In this document: positions 1-9,608 of the stretch, one piece after another
How positions within the stretch are numbered: position 1 is the first letter of the stretch
Layout: the number at the start of each line of letters is the position of its first letter
Position numbers and translations under genes: made by a program
Origin: an uncultured Enterobacterales bacterium
GTDB lineage: Bacteria > Pseudomonadota > Gammaproteobacteria > Enterobacterales > CALYQQ01
Assembly (NCBI GenBank): GCA_945288535.1
Contig: CALYQQ010000010.1
Location: 1-64,000 of the forward strand
Length of the DNA: 64,000 nucleotides
Direction: 5' to 3'
The notes under the pieces: generated by a model
What the model was told of the DNA's origin: nothing
Databases searched by the model: none
What the model saw: only the letters and a program-made list of their open reading frames with translations

Positions 1-486
1 TTCGATGTTGGAGAAAATCAGACCACACCTCGTCTGAGGGTTGTTCGTCGAATACTGACAAATCCAAATCTTTTTTATTTATTTTTTTAATATTACTGAT
101 CTTAGTATTATTAATATTAGTATTATTAATATTAGTATTCTTATATGTCGGATTTATTTCCGAGGGTAGGATTTATTTTCGAATTCCATTGTTTTCCTTT
201 TGTGGTTAATGAAATACAGTCTTTGCCACCATGTTTGCGATAATTAATTAAGCCTTTTTTACTTAAAGCTTTTAATGCACGGTAAAACAGTATCGACTTT
301 GCTATATGCAAGTGGGATTTCATTACAAATCATCTGTTTTGAAGCCCAGTAATACATTTCGCCATCAATAATTATCGGTTTAGTTCATGTGTGAAGCTGA
401 TTAAGCAAATCAAATAATGCACCTTGTTGCATATTTAGATCCCACTCAATGCATTTTGAATTATTAATGAAAGAAGTAATTCGCAT
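1..486 (-). pseudogene. Phage O-like replication protein, decayed and cut by the window edge
   Basis: On the minus strand an ATG at 486 opens a frame starting MRITSFINNSKCIEWDLNMQ, typical of the N-terminal DNA-binding part of lambdoid replication initiators (O family). An in-frame TGA at 385-387 sits where a Trp is expected (LHT-stop-TKPIIIDGEMYYW). An extra T in the run at 284-287 shifts the frame before YRALKALSKKGLINYRKHGG. A further shift near 150 is needed to reach the Asn-rich linker and the segment DLDLSVFDEQPSDEVWSDFL, which continues off the left edge. The start overlaps the stop of the upstream winged-helix gene (TAATG), as in a phage right operon. At least three lesions make it non-functional. 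The family call rests on pattern memory and on its place after cro and cII. Confidence 0.75.
102..139. repeat. 15-bp tandem direct repeat inside the phage replication gene
   Basis: The unit ttagtattattaata is present at 102-116 and 117-131 with a partial third copy at 132-139. On the coding (minus) strand it encodes the repeated N-x-N linker of the O-like protein. Lambdoid phages carry their replication origin as iterons plus AT-rich DNA within the O gene, so this could be the relic origin. It could equally be a simple low-complexity linker. Confidence 0.6.
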
Positions 487-713
487 TAGCCGTTCCTTAA
501 TAAATATTCAGCATATTTTTTGCCACTCTCAGTTTTGATCATGCGGCTTTCAATGTTGTATCCGTTTTGCTTTAAATTATAAATACGCGCTCCTAATCTA
601 AAGCACCCATATTGATTCAATGCTTGCAATGGATTGATTGATTTGCCACTCTGTAAATGCTGCAAAATGAGTAAGCACTGGTTTTTTGTGTTTTCATTAT
701 TTAACGTGCTCAT
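486..713 (-). CDS. Small winged-helix/HTH phage protein
   Basis: This 75-residue protein (MSTLNNENTKNQCLLILQHL...) has the layout of the HTH_39-type winged-helix domain seen in phage early regions: an N-terminal helix, then INPLQALNQYGCFRLGARIYNL as the helix-turn-helix, then a short wing with a basic end (ESRMIKTESGKKYAEYLL). It lies between the decayed cII and the O-like gene, and its stop overlaps the O start by one base, so it belongs to the former right operon. The frame is intact although both neighbours are broken. Its role is unknown; a DNA-binding accessory to phage early expression or replication is likely. Confidence 0.6.
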   Translation of the reverse strand: MSTLNNENTKNQCLLILQHLQSGKSINPLQALNQYGCFRLGARIYNLKQNGYNIESRMIKTESGKKYAEYLLRNG

Positions 714-759
714 ATCTGCCCGCTAGTTATGAGGTTTATATTGTTTCATCAATCTCTAA

Positions 760-1038
760 CTATTTACGAGCTAAGGTTTTTATTGATTTAAGCTCAGCTT
801 GTGAAACTTCTAATGAATCATCAGACACTAATTTCAAATTTAAACAAACTATTAGCCTTGCAATTACAGGCAGATCATCATTTTTTAATCTTAATATCTT
901 TGACTCACTCATTCTCATTTTAAGAGCAATAGTTGTCTGTGTTTTTTCTGCAAAGCGTTACAAGATTATGCTTTCAATCTTTCTCACTCTTTCATCAGCT
1001 ATGTTTGATAATTTTTCTATTGATTTGATCTCCGTCAT
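760..1038 (-). pseudogene. CII-like phage activator, nonsense-mutated
   Basis: On the minus strand the frame from ATG 1038 reads MTEIKSIEKLSNIADERVRK, then IESIIL, then TAA at 958-960, and continues in the same frame as RFAEKTQTTIALKMRMSESK...LPVIARLIVCLNLKLVSDDS to TAG at 760-762. The second part has the TQxxIAxKMxxSESxISRxK pattern of the CII helix-turn-helix, so it is one gene of about 92 codons. The TAA is most simply a CAA (Gln) to TAA change. CII would normally activate cI and int expression during lysogenisation. The start overlaps the 3' end of cro. CII identity is inferred from position and motif. Confidence 0.7.
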
Positions 1039-1214
1039 TGTTTCGATACAAAGAACTATCTACCTTCAATTTGCCTTTAGTAAATTCTTGTAGACGATAT
1101 GCGTTTTACTCAGGGATTATTTCGCCCCATTGAGATACGGCAGCGGGATTAATTATCAACGCATCAGCGACTTTTTTGGGCATTTAAAATAATTAATAAC
1201 CATTTTTTTAGCAT
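995..1214 (-). pseudogene. Cro-like repressor, frameshifted and nonsense-mutated
   Basis: The minus strand starts at ATG 1214 with MLKKMVINYFKCPKK. A frameshift in the A-run near 1170-1177 is needed to reach VADALIINPAAVSQWGEIIP. An in-frame TAA at 1106-1108 then precedes NAYRLQEFTKGKLKVDSSLY, which ends at TGA 995-997. The AVSQWGE...PE-AYRLQ-LT-G signature is diagnostic for Cro of the P22/lambda group. The gene diverges from cI across three operator-like sites, the classical cro/cI switch. With two lesions no functional Cro can be made, so the lytic side of the switch is lost. Confidence 0.85.
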
Positions 1215-1230
1215 AAGTTAAACCCAAAAT

Positions 1231-1244
1231 TTAAGAATTCTAAA
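1231..1244. promoter_or_regulatory. Operator-like site 1 in the cro-cI switch
   Basis: The near-palindrome ttaagaattctaaa has a perfect 8-bp core. It resembles the two sites at 1265 and 1280 in its TTAAG half and lies just upstream of the cro start. Three such sites between divergent cro and cI match the OR1-OR3 plan of lambdoid phages. Confidence 0.5.
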
Positions 1245-1264
1245 ATACTGCATTGTTAAAAATC

Positions 1265-1278
1265 TTAAGTTAACTTGA
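1265..1278. promoter_or_regulatory. Operator-like site 2 in the cro-cI switch
   Basis: The sequence ttaagttaacttga is an imperfect palindrome sharing the TTAAG(T/A)TAACTT pattern with the site 15 bp downstream. It probably binds the adjacent cI-type repressor. Confidence 0.6.
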
Positions 1279-1279
1279 T

Positions 1280-1293
1280 TTAAGATAACTTAA
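1280..1293. promoter_or_regulatory. Operator-like site 3, next to the cI ribosome binding site
   Basis: The sequence ttaagataacttaa is the best palindrome of the three. It ends about 20 bp before the cI start, a position suited to autorepression of cI. An AAGGGG ribosome-binding sequence follows at about 1301-1306. Confidence 0.6.
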
Positions 1294-1312
1294 ATAATGT
1301 AAGGGGTATCAT

Positions 1313-1963
1313 ATGACAACAGAAACAATTGGTCAAAGAATACGTAGGAGAAGAAAAGCATTAAATATTACGCAAAAAGACTTAGCTAAATCTCTACAAG
1401 ACGCTAGCCATGGTTCAATATCTCAATGGGAATCAGATACAACATCACCCAGTGCTAAAAATTTATTTGATTTATCAATAGCACTTGAATGCGATTTTGC
1501 ATGGCTTCTTAATGGTGGAGCAGAAACCAATGTCGTACCCGCATCATTAAAATCTTTTAAAATTCCACTAATAAGTTATGTACAAGCAGGAGTATGGACA
1601 GAGTCTTGTGAATTAAGCGATTCAACCAGATTTGAATATATTATGACATCATTAGAATTATCGGATAAAGCATTTGCGTTACAAATCAAGGGTGGCTCAA
1701 TGGAGCCTGAGTTTAAAGAAGGTGATGTTGTTATTATTGATCCAGCCATTAAGCCTACGCCAGGTGAATTTGTTGTAGCAATTAATGGTAAATCCGAAGC
1801 AACTTTCAAAAAATATAGAGAACTGGGATATGATGAGCATGAAAGAATGCAGTTTGAGCTTATTCCTTTAAATTCAGACTATACAATTATGAGTACATTA
1901 AAACAACAAATTAGAATTATTGGGACAATGGTCGAGCATAGAATATTTAGAAGAAAAAGATAG
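1313..1963 (+). CDS. cI-type phage repressor (HTH plus S24 self-cleaving domain)
   Basis: This 216-residue protein has an N-terminal XRE-type helix-turn-helix (residues about 5-65: GQRIRRRRKALNITQKDLAK...GSISQWESD) and a C-terminal LexA/CI peptidase domain. The self-cleavage site is probably Ala92-Gly93 (in SYVQAGVW), the nucleophile Ser129 (in KGGSMEPEFKEGD), and the general-base Lys166 (in EATFKKY). Families of this type hold the prophage silent and cleave themselves when RecA is activated by DNA damage. It is divergent from the broken cro with operator-like palindromes between. All catalytic elements are visible, so it is probably functional although its lytic targets are dead. AAGGGG at about 1301-1306 supports the ATG start. 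Confidence 0.9.
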   Translation: MTTETIGQRIRRRRKALNITQKDLAKSLQDASHGSISQWESDTTSPSAKNLFDLSIALECDFAWLLNGGAETNVVPASLKSFKIPLISYVQAGVWTESCELSDSTRFEYIMTSLELSDKAFALQIKGGSMEPEFKEGDVVIIDPAIKPTPGEFVVAINGKSEATFKKYRELGYDEHERMQFELIPLNSDYTIMSTLKQQIRIIGTMVEHRIFRRKR

Positions 1964-2044
1964 TAGCTTTGATGGGAATTCGAAAGCTATTTAATAATTT
2001 TGTTATAACAAAACAAATAATCTGAATGATATAAGGAAATAAAT

Positions 2045-3190
2045 ATGAATAATTTCAAAGATAAATTAAATAATCACTCTGAACACGTGAAAAAAGTTGG
2101 CAATCATTGCACAACAGAAGAAACCACAAAACAAGCTTTAATATTACCTTTACTTGATATTTTAGGTTTTACCCCATATAACCCAACTAAGGTAAAAGCA
2201 GAGTTTAAAGCTGACTTTCCAGGAGAAAAAGCTAATGAGCGAGTTGATTATGTCCTTTTTTGTCAAGATTTACCTGTAATGTTTATTGAAGCAAAATCAT
2301 GGAGTGAAGATTTAACAAATCACTGTCCTCAACTTTCTAGATATTTTAATGCAACTCCAGAAGTTGCTGTTGCAGCTATAACAAATGGTAGAGAGTGGAG
2401 ATTTTTCACCGATTTAGAACAGAAAAATATCATGGATGCCAACCCTTTTTTAAAAATTAATATTGAAGAATTGCAAGATAATGATTATGAACAACTATAC
2501 CAATTCAGATATGATCAATTTAAGCCTGAAACACTTAGGAATTTAGCAGAAGAAAGCATTTATTTCTCATTATTTACAAAAACAATAGCATCAACATTAA
2601 GAGATGCCCCCCTTGATTTTGTCAAATATGTTGCCAATAAATCAAATATTTCTAGACAATTAAATCAAAAGTTTTTAGACAGTATTACTCCTATTGTAAA
2701 AAAAGCAATTGAAAAAGCTGTAAGTAATATGGTTGTTGTAGGGTTAACTGGCAAAAAAGAACCGCTAGATGATTTAATCAGTGATATTGAAGAAAATAAA
2801 GCAATTGATGAAAAATCAGATATTATTGATCCTGATAATAAAAAAATTATTACTACTTATTCCGAAAGAGTTCTATTTAAATATATCAGTTCAATTATAC
2901 ATGATAATGAAGTGACATATAAAGATACTGAGTCATATTTTGGTATACTCTACCAGAACAAATCTAATAGATGGATTGTTCGTTACAATGACAATAAACA
3001 ACGCCCTTCTATTCAATTACCAATAGAATTAACCGAAAAAATAAAAAGTGAGATAAAAAGAGCTGGATTGGAAATAGGTGCAGGTGATCAAATTATTATT
3101 GATAAACCCGAGAATGTATTAAGAATAGCTGGAGTAATTATTGATGCATACGAATATACAAAGAATGATGAAAACTTCAAAAGAAAGTAA
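2045..3190 (+). CDS. Stand-alone HsdR-N-like nuclease, prophage cargo gene
   Basis: This 381-residue protein resembles the N-terminal domain of type I restriction R subunits (HSDR_N group). A helical start (TEETTKQALILPLLDILGF) is followed by a PD-(D/E)XK core with Asp68 (ERVDYVLF), Glu82 and Lys84 (VMFIEAKSW), then ITNGREWRFFTD. It has no helicase part. A separate C-terminal domain (about 265-381) contains ITTYSERVLFKYI and TYKDTESYFGILYQNKSNRW, a pattern I associate with conserved stand-alone proteins of this group. It lies just downstream of cI in the same direction, the position of rexAB in lambda, where genes expressed in the lysogen often exclude other phages. A ribosome-binding AAGGAA precedes the ATG. 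A defence role is inferred. Confidence 0.75.
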   Translation: MNNFKDKLNNHSEHVKKVGNHCTTEETTKQALILPLLDILGFTPYNPTKVKAEFKADFPGEKANERVDYVLFCQDLPVMFIEAKSWSEDLTNHCPQLSRYFNATPEVAVAAITNGREWRFFTDLEQKNIMDANPFLKINIEELQDNDYEQLYQFRYDQFKPETLRNLAEESIYFSLFTKTIASTLRDAPLDFVKYVANKSNISRQLNQKFLDSITPIVKKAIEKAVSNMVVVGLTGKKEPLDDLISDIEENKAIDEKSDIIDPDNKKIITTYSERVLFKYISSIIHDNEVTYKDTESYFGILYQNKSNRWIVRYNDNKQRPSIQLPIELTEKIKSEIKRAGLEIGAGDQIIIDKPENVLRIAGVIIDAYEYTKNDENFKRK

Positions 3191-3215
3191 ATTATTTGTC
3201 AATCACCCTCTTATT

Positions 3216-3238
3216 TAAACCGCCTAATGCGGTTTTTT
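3216..3238 (+). terminator. Rho-independent terminator after the HsdR-like gene
   Basis: The stem AACCGC/GCGGTT (3218-3223 and 3229-3234) has a 5-nt loop and is followed by Ts to 3238, 28 bp after the stop. It would end the cI-nuclease transcript. Confidence 0.85.
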
Positions 3239-3618
3239 CATGCATAAAATCTGTATAAACATATCTAAATATCCAATCCTTTCACGAATTAGATTTCCTA
3301 AATTCCCATATAGTTAATTTAAAATTTCTAAAATTTATTTTAGATGTTTTAAATTAATAATCACTACGGTGATCACTCTTTAACAACTAGGCACTCTTTA
3401 AATAGGGTACATAATCAAAGCCATTCGTTGAATGGCTTTGATTATGAGTTAATCCGTAAAATCTCGTCGTTTAGGGTGTGGATAATGTCTTTAGATGACC
3501 TATAAAAGATCTATCTTTAAATACCAGCGTAAGTAAGAGTTGCTGGTGATAGTAATATTATACAGCTTTTATCTAGATAGAGATTATCGCCAATCCAACC
3601 CTAAAGAGAAGTTTGAAG
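3239..3618. other. Non-coding gap with a perfect 16-bp inverted repeat
   Basis: About 380 bp lie between the nuclease terminator and the convergent PIN gene, with no credible frame. The gap holds the direct repeat cactctttaa (two copies, near 3375 and 3392) and a perfect inverted repeat at 3411-3426 and 3430-3445 with a 3-nt loop. A smaller palindrome (AAAGAT-CT-ATCTTT) lies at 3505-3518. The large hairpin has no T-run, so it is not a standard terminator. Confidence 0.6.
3411..3445. repeat. Perfect 16-bp inverted repeat, 3-nt loop
   Basis: The left arm ataatcaaagccattc and its exact complement at 3430-3445 flank gtt. There is no U-tract on either strand. It could be a bidirectional transcription barrier, a recombination site or a processed hairpin RNA between the nuclease gene and the PIN module. 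Confidence 0.8.
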
Positions 3619-4170
3619 TTAATGCCTTATATCAGCGTCCATGAAAACATCATCTGGTATATTAAATTGTTCAGGAATAGGCTCTATATCAGCGAAAGAT
3701 TTTACCGAAAGGTTTAATTCTTTGCATTTATCGTATATACCTTTATCATGTGTCCACACTTCATCTGCGTTTGTAGCTTTAGCAATTGCTATAATTTGTC
3801 GATCAAATTTGATCTTATTTGCAGTGCAAGACTCTTTTGACATCTGTCTTAACTCTTTTAGAGTTGGCAATAAAGCACATTCCATTGCTGAAATTTCTTC
3901 GAATGGGCTAATTTCAAAGCACTTCATACTATTAATTAGATTAACATGTTGGAAATGCATTTCTCTTTCAATTCCAAGTAAATATTCTGCAAGTACTGGT
4001 GTTGGAATTAAAATCACCCCTTTATTAAGCTCAATTAGATCAATTAATGCTTTGGAACGTAAGTCGACATTGCTAATAATTTGTCCGTTAGCAGGATTAG
4101 TGAATTGATGATTGGGCTTCAATCCTGTAATCATCGGGACTAATACATTTGTATCAATGATAATTTTCAA
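3619..4170 (-). CDS. PIN-domain ribonuclease-like protein
   Basis: This 183-residue protein begins MKIIIDTNVLVPMI, the PIN-domain signature. Acidic residues that could form the metal site are Asp6, Glu62 (in VLAEYLLG), Asp123 (in FDRQIIAIAKA) and Asp142 (in VWTHDKGIY). PIN proteins are Mg-dependent RNases, often VapC-type toxins. Its ATG overlaps the stop of the 236-residue partner by 4 bp (ATGA), so the two are translationally coupled. This is longer than ordinary VapC (about 130-140), with an extra segment around residues 20-50. The pair is transcribed against the surrounding prophage genes. It may be a toxin-antitoxin or phage-defence module; no target can be named. Confidence 0.8.
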   Translation of the reverse strand: MKIIIDTNVLVPMITGLKPNHQFTNPANGQIISNVDLRSKALIDLIELNKGVILIPTPVLAEYLLGIEREMHFQHVNLINSMKCFEISPFEEISAMECALLPTLKELRQMSKESCTANKIKFDRQIIAIAKATNADEVWTHDKGIYDKCKELNLSVKSFADIEPIPEQFNIPDDVFMDADIRH

Positions 4171-4877
4171 TTGATACTCCTTAATTTTTCTAGGACTTCA
4201 TAGGCATCGTCTATCTCATCCCAATTATTACCAGCATCTTTTGAGATTTTTTGTAAAGCCTGACCAAGATTTATATCTTGCAACTCAATGAAGTCTTCAA
4301 TTGTTAGTTTTTTAAGCTTCCAGATACCATCTTTTTTTATCCATTCGCTATTTCCCGTCACGCGAATATATTTAAATAGATAGTGACTCAATTTAACAGC
4401 AAGATTTGAGGTAGCCTCACAATTCAAAGTTTCTTTATTAGCCCCTTCCAGTTTTACTGGAATTATTTCATCTTTACCACCAATTTTATATAGCCGTCCC
4501 TGAACGCTGGATCTCTTGCGAATTGTTATAATCTCTGAGGTTAACTCAGGTCTAATTGTCCCAATAACAATTCCTTCACTACTTATTATTTCTGCTATTG
4601 TTCGATCTGTAGTGATTAATTTGACTAATTTTTGATGTAATGGACTATTATTAGATATTTGCTCTTTGGTTCTTTTGATGACGTCATAATGAACCGAACT
4701 GTTACTTGTATATGAATTTAATAACGTGCTACCTTCTTCAATAGATTCAAAATGAACGTTTTCTACATAACCATAAAGTCCAGATAAAACGGAAAGATAC
4801 TCTACCAATCGCGCCATTGGAAGCTGATTAGGTGTTATATCATGTAGTTTTAAGGTAAGCCTATTATTCTTACTCAT
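4167..4877 (-). CDS. Partner protein of the PIN gene, unknown function
   Basis: This 236-residue protein opens with LTLKLHDITPNQLPMARLVE, then YLSVLSGLYG and VHFESIEEGSTLL, a beta-alpha-beta start I vaguely associate with uncharacterised proteins of mobile elements. There is no signal peptide, membrane segment or catalytic motif that I recognise. The C-terminus is helical and acidic (DAGNNWDEIDDAYEVLEKLR). It precedes the PIN gene and overlaps it by 4 bp, the usual place of an antitoxin. At 26 kDa it is large for one, and it lacks an evident DNA-binding fold. It could be an antitoxin, a sensor or an RNA-binding partner. Confidence 0.7.
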   Translation of the reverse strand: MSKNNRLTLKLHDITPNQLPMARLVEYLSVLSGLYGYVENVHFESIEEGSTLLNSYTSNSSVHYDVIKRTKEQISNNSPLHQKLVKLITTDRTIAEIISSEGIVIGTIRPELTSEIITIRKRSSVQGRLYKIGGKDEIIPVKLEGANKETLNCEATSNLAVKLSHYLFKYIRVTGNSEWIKKDGIWKLKKLTIEDFIELQDINLGQALQKISKDAGNNWDEIDDAYEVLEKLRSIN

Positions 4878-5406
4878 TTGTTCACTTCAATCTGAAATAA
4901 CTAAATATATACAATACAATTTGCAATATTAACTAAAATTATGCAAGTTTTTAATTTGAGCACCTTAGGGTTAGTTTAGAGTGTTTCTATATTTGACAAT
5001 CCCCAGCCTTTAAGGGCGAGATTTTACAGATGAACTGATAAAACAATGACGCATGATCATGGCTTGATTATATAATTCTTTCTTTTAAATCATATTGATA
5101 ATATGATAATAAGCTCTATCACAATCAATATGATTTGATGCTAATATGTCTAGTAACAATTCTCACAACCTATAATAGCAAGGAAGTAATAATTTTTCCT
5201 TGCCATCCAAATTCATAAAATTACCTGTAGTGGGCTTTGGGGTGCGATGTTGGGTAACTCCTTTCAAATGCAACTACCTGTTAATTAGCTATAACCATTT
5301 TGAAATCTAAAAACACACATTTCTATTCATTCATTTCGGAAAAATCAAAACATATCAATATCCATTTGCGAGCAACTTTGTTTATGACAAGTCTGGAGGC
5401 AATCAC
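4878..5406. other. Non-coding region upstream of the candidate N gene
   Basis: About 530 bp without a credible frame. It should contain the promoter for the divergent PIN module and the left early promoter with nut-like sites ahead of the N-like gene. I could not find copies of the cI operator motif here with confidence. A hairpin with 8-bp arms (GCAAGGAA/TTCCTTGC) lies at 5178-5203. Confidence 0.5.
5178..5203. repeat. 8-bp stem hairpin upstream of the N-like gene
   Basis: GCAAGGAA (5178-5185) and TTCCTTGC (5196-5203) flank a 10-nt T-rich loop. It may be a structured leader element or a remnant terminator. No long T-run follows. Confidence 0.5.
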
Positions 5407-5670
5407 ATGACTATTGTTTACACAATAAAAAGTAATCACCAAGGTCAAGGTAACTATAGGCTTAGGAAGCAGAAGAAAAAACAACAAAAATTACAGGAAA
5501 AATATAAAGAATTTTGCCTATCACGGAAGAGAAAAGAGCTCTTATTAGGCACAAGCAGCAATGTGATCAAAGCGGTAACCATGCCAACGGTAAAAAGTGC
5601 AAAACCAACATCATCAAGTTGCTACCTACCTAATGTCAACCTATTTGCCGTTACTCAAAGGAAGCAGTAA
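5407..5670 (+). CDS. Candidate N-type phage antitermination protein
   Basis: This 87-residue, very basic protein starts MTIVYTIKSNHQGQGNYRLR and has a long Lys/Arg/Gln helix (about 18-45) and a tail SCYLPNVNLFAVTQRKQ. As I recall, P22 N (gp24) begins with a similar MTVITYGKS-like segment, has an arginine-rich RNA-binding helix and ends with an LPxVxLYA...RK motif; the match to that plan is suggestive. The position also fits, since lambdoid N lies beyond cI and its cargo and reads in the same direction. TGGAGG 8 bp before the ATG is a strong ribosome binding site. N proteins bind boxB RNA and let RNA polymerase read through terminators. No boxB was identified. Confidence 0.5.
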   Translation: MTIVYTIKSNHQGQGNYRLRKQKKKQQKLQEKYKEFCLSRKRKELLLGTSSNVIKAVTMPTVKSAKPTSSSCYLPNVNLFAVTQRKQ

Positions 5671-5815
5671 AAACATTACCGCAAGGTGCGCAATAATGAA
5701 AATTATCAAAATCGGCAATATTCTCAATTGCACATTTCATAAAATCACTAGGAATTTTCCAAACACTGTCGATGGTTGGCACTGCGTTATTATCTGGGTT
5801 GAGGAAATGATCTAT
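5651..5815 (-). pseudogene. Remnant of a small cysteine-containing phage protein
   Basis: The minus-strand frame reads IDHFLNPDNNAVPTIDSVWK, then IPSDFMKCAIENIADFDNFH, then YCAPCGNVFTASFE and a stop. The composition and the CAPCG motif look like real protein, but the frame begins at an ATA and lacks ATG, and it runs antisense to the 3' end of the N-like gene. It is probably a small gene that has lost its start. The family is unknown. Confidence 0.35.
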
Positions 5816-5952
5816 TTACAAAATATCTCTAATAAATGATGGGCTTGATATTCAAATCACCAATCACACAGGCTCATATAGCCGTTAAATTAAATATCCA
5901 CACTTTACTATTAAAACAATAGTGCAGATAGAACTACAACAGGAGGTGCAAT

Positions 5953-6189
5953 TTGTTGGTATTAAGCAGAAACAAGGATCAATCAATATTAATCGGGGAG
6001 AATATCATTGTTAAAATACTAGAATTTCATGGTGGACAGATAAAAATAGGAATTACCGCCCCGTTAAATTTAATCATTTTGTGGGATGAATTAAAACGAA
6101 AGGTCAAAAGAACCGCAAATTTAAATAACCCGTTAACCTCAAAATCCGCCCTAAATGACGGAAATATGTCAACTATGGAAAAATTATGA
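5953..6189 (+). CDS. Phage-borne CsrA/RsmA-family RNA-binding regulator
   Basis: The 78-residue protein begins MLVLSRNKDQSILIGENIIV, then KILEFHGGQIKIGITAP and a short helix, the CsrA fold: an LxLxR first strand, GxxI, the GxxIxIGIxAP core, then a helix. The usual RxEI stretch after the AP turn is altered (LNLIILWDELKRKV). CsrA dimers bind GGA motifs in mRNA leaders and control translation. The start is TTG at 5953, with AGGAGG at 5941-5946. The C-terminal 20 residues exceed the typical 61-residue host protein. It overlaps the next gene by 4 bp (ATGA). This copy lies within the prophage, so it is a paralogue of the host gene and could act on host or phage mRNAs. Confidence 0.8.
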   Translation: MLVLSRNKDQSILIGENIIVKILEFHGGQIKIGITAPLNLIILWDELKRKVKRTANLNNPLTSKSALNDGNMSTMEKL

Positions 6190-6626
6190 GTTTTTTCGAT
6201 CATCTAGAAGAATACAATATTAAATATTCAAAATGCGGTGAGGAAGTCACTATCCATGAAAGTTTGTTTTTGAGTTATACCAGCATAACCCAATTACCTG
6301 ATAACTTGTCTGTGGGTAGAGATTTGGATTTGAGTGATATCAGCATAACCCAATTACCTGATAATTTGTCTGTAGGTAACATCTTGTCTTTAAATGCAAA
6401 AGTCATCTCAAATATAGCCTACCGAGAAAATTGCGGGAAATATAACCGTACCATATTTGCCGCATATGTTAACGGAGAAATACAAATCGCAGCAGATTGC
6501 TTTTTAGGAAATATCAAAAAGTTTGAATCAGCAGTAGATAAAAAATACTCAGATACTGATGCTGAGAAATACAAACAGACAGTCCGAGAGTGTATCAAAG
6601 AACTGGAAGAGATGAAAAGCCACTAA
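6186..6626 (+). CDS. Short leucine-rich-repeat-like prophage protein
   Basis: This 146-residue protein has two near-identical repeats around ITQLPDNLSVG (about residues 34-76) that resemble the strand-turn units of bacterial LPxxLxxLxxL leucine-rich repeats. A distinct C-terminal domain follows (KYNRTIFAAYVNGEIQIAAD...GNIKKFESAVDKKYSDTDAE). Both features occur together in uncharacterised prophage proteins, usually with more repeats, so this copy seems to have a contracted array. It is translationally coupled to the csrA-like gene (ATGA at 6186). There is no signal peptide. It may be an accessory (moron) gene with a role in host interaction; the function is unknown. Confidence 0.6.
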   Translation: MSFFDHLEEYNIKYSKCGEEVTIHESLFLSYTSITQLPDNLSVGRDLDLSDISITQLPDNLSVGNILSLNAKVISNIAYRENCGKYNRTIFAAYVNGEIQIAADCFLGNIKKFESAVDKKYSDTDAEKYKQTVRECIKELEEMKSH

Positions 6627-6956
6627 CAGCGACATTGCAAATGCAATTATTCGCTTATTAGAAATTGCAAATTTTCTAGAGATAGACATTACAGGAACGT
6701 ATAGCGGAAGCATAACACTTGGATGTAAAAATCCGTATGTATATTTTTTTGTTTAATACTCCGTCTCTTTAGCTGTGAGGCTTTCATTGACCATATTAAG
6801 CGTAGAAGAAAAAAATCAATATTAAACAAATTGAGGAATGTTGGTCCAGCATTCGGTAGAATTATTTATGAACTATTTAAATTGGGTCAAGTGCTAAATC
6901 TTGATATTAAAACAGCCATTCTAGAAATATCTAACCTTCCCCACTCTTCCAAATAA
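6627..6956 (+). pseudogene. Fragments of prophage early genes
   Basis: Two protein-like stretches appear in different frames. The first runs from about 6626 to 6756 (SDIANAIIRLLEIANFLEID...LGCKNPYVYFFV-stop). The second is about 6757-6956 (CEAFIDHIKRRRKKSILNKL, RNVGPAFGRIIYELFKLGQ, VLNLDIKTAILEIS, stop). They may be halves of one gene joined by a frameshift, or two small genes. Neither has an intact start. They lie between the repeat protein and the excisionase, where small left-operon phage genes are expected. Confidence 0.45.
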
Positions 6957-7017
6957 CATTCAATAAAGCTTTAAGGCAAAAAGTAATAAGCGTTTCAAAG
7001 GAAAAATTACGAAACTA

Positions 7018-7218
7018 ATGAAAGCCTCATTATGGGCATCTCGTGAGTTTGAGTTAAACTCTCGACCTGACAATAGAACAATTAAAAGATGGATAGAAAC
7101 AGGAAAAATTCAAGGAAGAATTATTGATGAACGTGCCTATGTTTTTTCAACAGAAAAATTTGGTGTTAATCACCTCGTTTCCGCACATGTTCACAAACTA
7201 ATCAAAGAATTAAGATAA
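7018..7218 (+). CDS. xis: Excisionase (Xis-like)
   Basis: This 66-residue protein has the excisionase winged-helix pattern WASREFELNSRPDNRTIKRW followed by GKIQGRIIDERAYVFS. Xis bends attachment-site DNA so that integrase carries out prophage excision. It ends 3 bp before the integrase start, the standard xis-int arrangement. The frame is intact, but with the integrase broken it has no partner here. Intact length and motif place it in the phage 21/e14-type excisionase group, judged by eye. Confidence 0.75.
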   Translation: MKASLWASREFELNSRPDNRTIKRWIETGKIQGRIIDERAYVFSTEKFGVNHLVSAHVHKLIKELR

Positions 7219-7221
7219 ATT

Positions 7222-8408
7222 ATGTCTGTAAGGCCAAGAAAAAAGAAATAGGTTGCCAGAGTACTTTTTTACCGAAAAGATCGAAAATCCTACTTTATAG
7301 TATTCGTCAATGGAGTCAAGCGTGGCCTTGGTAGTAATCGGTTATATGCCATTGAGGTTGCTCGCAAGTATAATTTAAGGATGCGACATAATAAAAAGCT
7401 AAGCCTTGATGATTTGATTATTGAGTCTGGCGGTTATCATGGGGAAGGATACCCCCTTTCACAACATGTCGATCATCTGTTACGTCGAGCTATTGATGAT
7501 GAGCAGCCATCTAAAGATACGGTTGCTGTTTAGCAAAATGATTCAATAAGAATTAAAGAATTTTTTCATAACATTCCCTCATGTGAAATTACACTAGAGC
7601 ATGTCAATCAATATATTAAAAAATATCATAGTAATGCATCAGCTAATGTTCAAAATCGAAAGGTTAGTTTCCTGAAAAAACTATTTAGTTATGCCATGGA
7701 TGAATCATTGATGTTTGACAATCCAGCGGAACGAAAAAAAATGAAGAAACCAGAAAGAAAGCAGCGTAAACGGTTGTCATTTGATTTATCCTTAGAAATT
7801 CATCGTTATGCGCCTGCTTGGATGAACATTGCAACGGAACTTGCGCTACAAACGACCCAAGCAAGATTAGAAATAACCCGAATCAGATATTCTATCAAAG
7901 AGCTTAAAGATGGTATATGTGGTTGTGTATGGCTCAAAGAATCCGTAAACGGTATCTATGGCACACTTTATATTCACCGTCAAAAGACACAACATAAAGA
8001 AGCATCTCATGTAGCTATTCCTATCGGTGAGGCGATTAAACAAATCATAGACGCAAGCAGAGAGACAATATAATTAGTCCTTTTATTGTTCATCGGTTAC
8101 CAGATAAAAATAGCAATTCATTAAGCAAGGAAGTGTCTCACCTAACTCAAGTTGCACCCGATTATTTAAGTCGGACTTTCTCAATAATAAGGGATAAATT
8201 AGGGTTATATGAAGATTTAAGTCTGAGAGAACGACCTACTTTTCATGAAAGACGCGCATTGTCAGCTCGAATGTTACAAGACCAAGGTTACAACCCCCAA
8301 GCAAGAATGGCACATAGTGATGAAAAATCGACACGAATTTATACTGAAAATCACAGAGACTGGGTACACGTTCCACATATTGAAATAAAACTTAATAACA
8401 TTAAATAA
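7222..8408 (+). pseudogene. int: Lambdoid tyrosine-recombinase integrase, inactivated
   Basis: The frame from ATG 7222 reads MSVRPRKKK, then TAG (7249-7251), then VARVLFYRKDRKSYFIVFVN and the arm/core-binding region, with a second TAG at 7531-7533. A third interruption at about 8071 needs a frameshift to continue into SPFIVHRLPDKNSNSLSKEV and the catalytic end. Catalytic elements of the tyrosine recombinase are visible: Arg in TQARLEITRI, Lys in HKEASHVAIP, the HxxR box in TFHERRALSA, His in RMAHSDEKSTRIYTENH and Tyr in the same segment. The gene points at the tRNA-Pro gene used for integration. With two nonsense codons and a shift it cannot make full-length enzyme, so the prophage is trapped. 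Confidence 0.9.
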
Positions 8409-8681
8409 TATTAAAATAAAAAATATTAAATCTGCAATTAATAAATAAGCTATAAATAATATTTATCCCATTTTATTTATTTAAATAAAATAGTAATACT
8501 ATCACATAAAAATGATTAAATTATGAATATAAAAACATAAATTGTTAGAGTGGAGGGATAACTAACCTATTGAAATAAAAGATAAGCTTAAACAGGATTT
8601 AAGATCAAATAGTTTCACACCAGCACAAAATTTAACCAGCTTAAAATTTAATATAACTCTTTGGTTTATAGAAGGATTTTT
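8409..8681. other. AT-rich gap between int and tRNA-Pro
   Basis: No gene is seen. The prophage attachment half-site should lie at the right end of this gap and in the 3' part of the tRNA. The second copy of the core would be at the other prophage end, outside the window. Confidence 0.5.
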
Positions 8682-8758
8682 TGGTCGGCACGAGAGGATT
8701 TGAACCTCCGACCCCTGACACCCCATGACAGTGCGCTACCAGGCTGCGCTACGTGCCG
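8682..8758 (-). tRNA. tRNA-Pro (anticodon GGG), prophage integration site
   Basis: The minus strand gives a 77-nt cloverleaf. It starts CGGCACGTAGCGCAGCCTGG, has anticodon loop CATGGGGTG (GGG, reads CCC/CCU), T-loop GGTTCAAATCC, an acceptor stem ending GTGCCG, and the CCA encoded at 8682-8684. It closely resembles E. coli proL. Its 3' end faces the integrase remnant, the usual geometry when a lambdoid phage has used the tRNA 3' end as attB and restored it. Confidence 0.95.
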
Positions 8759-9608
8759 ATAATGAGCCGGTATAATACATTCTTATAATATAAATGCAAG
8801 AAAAAATCGTTATAAATTATTTTATATGGTGATAAATAGAGCAATATATAATAGCGTATCTAAAGATACCTTATCTATTAGTGTCACTAATTCTATAAAA
8901 AATATCCTAGTATAGTAGGTATAAATAGTATTGAAAATAAATTCAATTTATTGCTTAACTCTATGAAAAAATAATCAAAAGTAACCAATCTACTAATACA
9001 AAAAACATTATAACATTAATTAACGTGTTTTAATTCTTGTTTGTTTTATATTTTTAGTTATTATTATTTATTGATGAATTAGACTATAATGATAAATAAA
9101 TAATTTTTGTTAATGAAATTATATTTTTATTTTTAGTTTTATTATTTAATTATTTAAATCGGACATATGTCCTAACAGTTAAATCAAAAATTATTTTATG
9201 ATATTCAAATAAAGCGTATAAAATTAATTTACCATTGATTAAAACAACTTTATTAAAAATAACAATTTTTAGCTAAAGCTTGTTATTTATTATGATATAT
9301 AAAAAGTTTAAATATAAAAACATTTAAACTAAATCATTTAAATATATTTTTATCTAAAATTTTAAAATAAAATTATTTATATATTTTTATTGCTTATACA
9401 TTTAAATTAATGTCAATTTTATTCTTAATAAAAAATAACAGTTACTAATAATTATTAATATAAAGTTGTTTTTTAAAAATGAATTATTTATTCATATATT
9501 AATACTATTTTTTGCATACTGAAAATTAACTGATTTTATTTAATCATACAGTAATTATATTAATAACTGCGTATTGCTTTTATTCATATTAATCGATTAG
9601 GTAATATA
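8759..9608. other. 850-bp very AT-rich gap
   Basis: No open frame, tRNA or clear hairpin was seen. It separates tRNA-Pro from the transporter gene and presumably holds the promoters of both. Confidence 0.6.

Follow-up and report, generated by a model that had tools for sequence, protein, structure and literature searches.

Downstream of the repressor gene cI, both phage lambda and P. putida carry a two-gene cargo (RexAB and RexABpp, respectively), and RexA is believed to detect DNA intermediates of phages and to activate an effector (PMC12894663). For two-gene modules with a PIN-domain protein, a toxin-antitoxin survey from 2009 lists many partners of PIN proteins and does not mention an OB fold in its text (PMC2701414). 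DS-5 (DefensePredictor) combines a PIN protein with a DUF5830/AcrIF4-like protein, defends E. coli against phage, requires both genes and is not a toxin-antitoxin system (PMC13092281). Here, we analyzed a locus at the beginning of a 64,000-nucleotide stretch of DNA (the window) from contig CALYQQ010000010.1 of an uncultured Enterobacterales bacterium. The first 8.8 kb of the window are a decayed lambdoid prophage that ends at tRNA-Pro(GGG). In this remnant, a cI gene is followed by a helicase-less HsdR_N nuclease gene on the same strand, an opposed overlapping gene pair encoding a PIN-domain nuclease and its partner, and an N-like gene again on the forward strand.

We read this locus as the rex slot of a lambda-like prophage in decay, holding two independent, horizontally exchanged cargoes that probably serve exclusion, with the PIN enzyme under the control of an OB-fold partner. 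Taken as a whole, we give this reading about an even chance of being correct. An earlier note, made from the letters alone, had already described cI, a stand-alone HsdR_N-like nuclease and an opposed PIN pair at this site, and all of these frames were found to be intact:

1313..1963, + strand: cI-like repressor, 216 aa (HTH_3 2e-12, Peptidase_S24 9e-22, phrog_4 1e-46)
2045..3190, + strand: stand-alone HsdR_N nuclease, 381 aa (HSDR_N 7e-15, phrog_4225)
3217..3235, + strand: probable terminator of the nuclease gene, a hairpin followed by a U-run (-8.2 kcal/mol, z -3.1)
3410..3446: strong hairpin on both strands, formed by a perfect inverted repeat of 17 bp with a 3-nt loop, where the nuclease and PIN units converge
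3619..4170, - strand: PIN-domain nuclease, 183 aa (PF01850 3e-6, phrog_21691 2e-50), with a TTG start and an AAGGAG site
4167..4877, - strand: partner, 236 aa, first gene of the pair (phrog_19868 3e-70), overlapping the PIN gene by 4 nt
5407..5670, + strand: N-like antiterminator, 87 aa (PF25694 3e-8), right boundary of the slot

The four frames from cI to the partner are well beyond chance length. In this AT-rich DNA, with a stop probability of 0.074 per codon, the probability of meeting no stop is 7e-8 for cI, 2e-13 for the nuclease, 8e-7 for the PIN protein and 1e-8 for the partner.

The slot between cI and N exchanges PIN cassettes

The earlier note had compared the position with the place of rexAB in lambda, and exchangeable cargo was indeed present between cI and N in other phages. 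In a Proteus mirabilis prophage (L048), cro and cI are followed by a DUF3024 gene, the partner-PIN pair and then N, and in the Pseudomonas phages Ostro and Pacha the pair stands directly behind cI. Like RexAB, the pair is thus a two-gene cargo downstream of cI, located between cI and N in the window and in the Proteus prophage. It runs with cI in the Proteus and Pseudomonas relatives and is opposed to cI only in the window. In contrast to RexAB, the effector in the window is a PIN nuclease and not a membrane protein, and neither RexA nor RexB was matched by Pfam.

Exchange at the slot was directly visible in the comparison of AV001 and Ostro. Both phages are 97% identical through cI and the next 16 bp, after which the identity breaks off and is later resumed. 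Ostro carries the 1.39-kb pair at this site, AV001 a different, overlapping two-gene cassette of 1.48 kb whose second gene also encodes a PIN protein. As different cassettes lie between near-identical flanks, the slot exchanges PIN cassettes. The AV001 cassette (L219, 4928-6287) encodes a 278-aa partner and a 177-aa PIN protein, and a relative with PIN is found in L224. Homology of the AV001 partner to the partner in the window was considered and not accepted, the hhalign alignment being collinear over the OB region and not significant (E 0.16-0.2). The exclusion genes olg1/olg2 of Pseudomonas phage Fc02 were likewise dismissed as the same pair, as they are small, unrelated and located in front of a Mu-like repressor gene.

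The neighbourhood survey proposed in the earlier note confirmed the pair behind cI in Proteus and Pseudomonas phages and the nuclease behind repressors. Every relative examined has either the nuclease or the pair, never both. One combined nuclease-PIN system, as suggested by the idea of a single defence island, was therefore rejected.

Partner and PIN protein form a distinct module

The partner and the PIN protein are a distinct module with near-obligate pairing. The partner profile retrieved full-length homologues from 9 of 399 Pseudomonadota genomes (a tenth match is a 41-position fragment), and the PIN profile, searched separately, had its matches in the same nine. A pattern scan for the partner, for which a six-row alignment subset was used because the seven-row alignment was too diverse, yielded 121 genome stretches; 80 were kept, Acidobacteriota among them. 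Homologues of the partner are also present on plasmids and in Pseudomonas phages. Across Pseudomonadota and Acidobacteriota, 109 of 119 loci have the partner followed by the PIN gene on the same strand, at about 0-20 nt, and the two genes usually overlap by 4 nt or 1 nt. Two of the ten exceptional loci stop at a contig end, and four have an intact partner in front of a truncated PIN gene of which the first codons are left. If PIN were the toxic part, it would be expected to be lost before the partner, and the truncated loci are at most suggestive of such toxicity. In one of the four (L185), the PIN gene seems to be disrupted by an HNH-type gene, at about 6700-7400. By reading of the sequences, restriction-like genes seem to recur beside the PIN pair in a few chromosomes (L085, L103, L104 and L102, L139), with no neighbour being constant.

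The acidic quartet of the PIN protein (D6, E62, D123 and D142) is kept, and these positions are 92-98% conserved. The partner matched no Pfam or NCBIfam family, and a sequence search against solved structures returned nothing for the nuclease, the PIN protein or the partner. An AlphaFold2 model of the partner, based on 68 sequences (pLDDT 89.5), consists of an N-terminal alpha/beta domain and an OB-fold domain at about residues 117-198. Using Foldseek, the second half of the model matched the OB folds of RPA32, Stn1, bacterial single-stranded DNA-binding proteins (SSBs) and phage SSBs (best E 4e-5, probability 1.0). Whole-chain TM-scores were low because the match covers about 90-120 of the 236 residues. 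According to this confident model, the partner is predicted to have an SSB-like OB-fold domain.

Both proteins have full-length matches to catalogued families, the partner to phrog_19868 and the PIN protein to phrog_21691. These families are listed separately and with unknown function, whereas their near-obligate pairing, the OB fold of the predicted model and the slot are established in the present analysis. The pair resembles VapBC in that a PIN enzyme with an intact quartet comes second in a coupled operon, behind an overlapping gene in the antitoxin position. In contrast to VapBC, the partner has 236 aa and an OB fold and is not a small DNA-binding antitoxin of the ribbon-helix-helix, AbrB or PHD type; furthermore, PIN proteins of the window type (about 180 aa) form a subfamily of their own. 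DS-5, compared by description, is similar as a two-gene PIN module. Up to an E-value of 1, the partner showed no similarity to DUF5830, and the DUF5830 model matched none of 296 genomes of the order; by this domain search, identity of the pair with DS-5 is not supported but may still hold.

Searches of PADLOC-DB 2.0.0 with an E-value limit of 1 gave no profile match for the nuclease, the PIN protein or the partner. The earlier note could tie the combination to no named system, and this holds for the pair alone, since the nuclease is a member of phrog_4225. The pair is apparently a widespread and yet unnamed PIN two-gene module with an OB-fold partner; a published name was not found within the openly licensed literature, and it may have been named elsewhere.

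The nuclease is a repressor-linked cargo under purifying selection

Judged by its sequence, the nuclease is not new and belongs to a common phage family that is already catalogued. It is a full-length member of phrog_4225 (residues 1-375 on positions 1-357, E 2.8e-139). With this family (about 380 aa), which PHROGs calls 'endonuclease' and NCBI 'type I restriction endonuclease', it shares both the similarity over the whole length and the place behind repressors, and nothing essential is different. The HsdR domain with its D, ExK and QxxxY motifs is common to the nuclease and type I restriction-modification enzymes, and the corresponding residues D68, E82-x-K84 and Q96-x3-Y100 are invariant from Gammaproteobacteria to phages of Gram-positive bacteria (Firmicutes). 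In contrast to type I systems, helicase domains had no match in the 381-aa protein, and neither a methylase nor a specificity gene (hsdM/hsdS) was detected among the open reading frames at 1-9000. Because the nuclease has no methylase partner, self and non-self must be distinguished in another way, perhaps by means of modified or replicating DNA. FS_HsdR_like, a stand-alone HsdR-like protein of a phage satellite, is reportedly anti-phage and resembles the nuclease by description only.

The nuclease family recurs directly behind unrelated repressors in phages of Gram-negative and Gram-positive bacteria. It is present in 18 annotated phage records, ranging from Klebsiella to Streptococcus and Corynebacterium, and had matches in 32 of 296 genomes of the order (20 of 99 genera), several of which were weak and to large HsdR-type open reading frames. 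Relatives with an identity of 86-89% (L001, L002, L003) or 82% (L065) are encoded directly behind S24-type repressors, which differ in their DNA-binding halves. As the conserved DNA starts 38-107 bp upstream of the nuclease start, the gene is transferred as a cassette that includes a leader of its own. The nuclease follows a repressor in Rac-like prophages of E. coli, and elsewhere the family is located in the tail module or beside Q. Together, these placements show how broadly helicase-less HsdR nucleases are used as repressor-linked cargo.

The dN/dS check recommended in the earlier note, made for the nuclease, gave no sign of relaxed selection. For the six closest relatives tested, omega (dN/dS) was 0.05-0.06, the synonymous divergence from close relatives being 1.2-1.8, and over all comparisons it was 0.05-0.12. 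The nuclease is under purifying selection.

A possible role in phage exclusion

The position behind cI, the swapping of cassettes and the nuclease content point to exclusion functions that are expressed during lysogeny. The HsdR_N nuclease would be expressed with or beside cI in the lysogen and would most likely cut incoming phage DNA. For the pair, the partner would be translated first, coupled to the PIN ribonuclease, and would restrain this enzyme. Its OB domain would most likely read a nucleic-acid signal of infection, either single strands or their binding proteins, and phage replication would free or activate the PIN enzyme. The latter may then cut RNA, presumably tRNA or rRNA as in the case of VapC, thereby arresting the infected cell.

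A more far-reaching proposal is that the pair represents a new two-gene anti-phage class which is mobile among Pseudomonadota and Acidobacteriota and whose PIN ribonuclease has an SSB-like OB-fold protein as its brake and, at the same time, as its infection sensor; temperate phages would swap different PIN cassettes of this kind in the rex slot for lysogeny-expressed exclusion. We put this forward tentatively and think it rather less probable than its opposite. If true, the structure of an unnamed but widespread PIN module would make sense as an RNase under an OB-fold controller, and the module would have a niche (the cI-N slot). Natural swap pairs such as Ostro and AV001, with their near-identical repressor regions, would allow the exclusion hypothesis to be tested directly in laboratory lysogens of Pseudomonas.

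Several observations weigh against exclusion as outlined here. The pair lies against the cI strand in the window, and co-expression with cI fails there; as it is inverted and convergent on the nuclease, with the probable terminator and the 17-bp hairpin in between, it needs its own promoter. A hairpin also separates cI and the nuclease, and since upstream DNA travels along with the latter, the nuclease may have its own promoter as well. A constant defence-gene neighbourhood was not found around the pair, nor was a phage assay or toxicity test of either family in the openly licensed literature. The profile and structure searches called for in the earlier note did identify the nuclease and PIN families and the OB fold of the partner. 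The OB assignment, however, depends on a model with a pTM of 0.62 whose matches cover only part of the length (TMq about 0.27), and the predicted structure of the nuclease was too poor to be usable (pLDDT 58.7). Finally, the selective survival of the cargo within the remnant is weak evidence. It was overstated as a sign of selection, because open frames also remain for the N-, CsrA- and Xis-like genes and the window starts at the contig end; purifying selection on the nuclease stands, whereas the claim that only these frames survived was too strong.

Alternatively, the PIN pair might be an ordinary toxin-antitoxin addiction module that stabilises prophages and plasmids, with only an incidental effect on phages. 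The partner-first order, the 4-nt overlap, the PIN fold, the carriage on plasmids and the toxin-first loss are all in agreement with addiction, which we consider possible but doubtful: the partner is large for this role (236 aa), a DNA-binding antitoxin domain was not found in it, its fold is unlike the PIN antitoxins of PMC2701414, and both the placement in an exclusion slot and the exchange with another PIN cassette argue for a different function. The pair might also be a sensor-effector defence that depends on both proteins, with the partner as an activator and not as an antitoxin, as reported for DS-5 (PMC13092281). DS-5 shows that a two-gene PIN system can defend without behaving as a toxin-antitoxin, and an OB fold suits the sensing of single strands. 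Nevertheless, the undetected DUF5830 and the four loci that kept the partner after truncation of PIN, which is a better fit to an antitoxin than to a useless activator, place this explanation on the improbable side.

As for the nuclease, it might serve the phage's own cycle, in recombination or host DNA processing, and not exclusion. It is found in intact temperate phages, some with RdgC or exonuclease genes nearby; its sporadic occurrence, its swapping between unrelated repressors and its additional places in the tail module and beside Q are the behaviour of cargo and make this role unlikely. Both modules could finally be neutral leftovers of a dying prophage whose frames are open by accident, which would be in line with the broken integrase and early genes and with a terminase that was not clearly found. 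This is very improbable, since the catalytic residues are intact in both enzymes, omega is about 0.05 in the nuclease lineage, and both modules occur again in this slot in other phages.

Decay of the surrounding prophage

The earlier note had described the surroundings of the slot as broken. This is correct for the integrase and the early genes, but not for the N-, CsrA- and Xis-like frames. No complete cro-like frame was detected at 1-1300, and remnants of early rightward genes are split over several frames. The search for a terminase gave a single weak match, to a family that also matched 11 of 14 control genomes. Further features of the remnant are the following:

5953..6189, + strand: CsrA-like protein, open frame downstream of the N-like gene (PF02599 2e-16)
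7018-7218: Xis-like open frame
7252..8408, + strand: integrase pseudogene with an in-frame stop at 7531-7533 and a frame change near 8040-8073
8682..8758, - strand: tRNA-Pro(GGG), probable attachment site beside the integrase

As a second copy of the tRNA-Pro end was not found in the assembly, the other end of the prophage is lost or unassembled. The protein encoded at 6186-6626 contains two near-identical leucine-rich-like repeats (ITQLPDNLSVG), and its C-terminal part is weakly similar to phage families.

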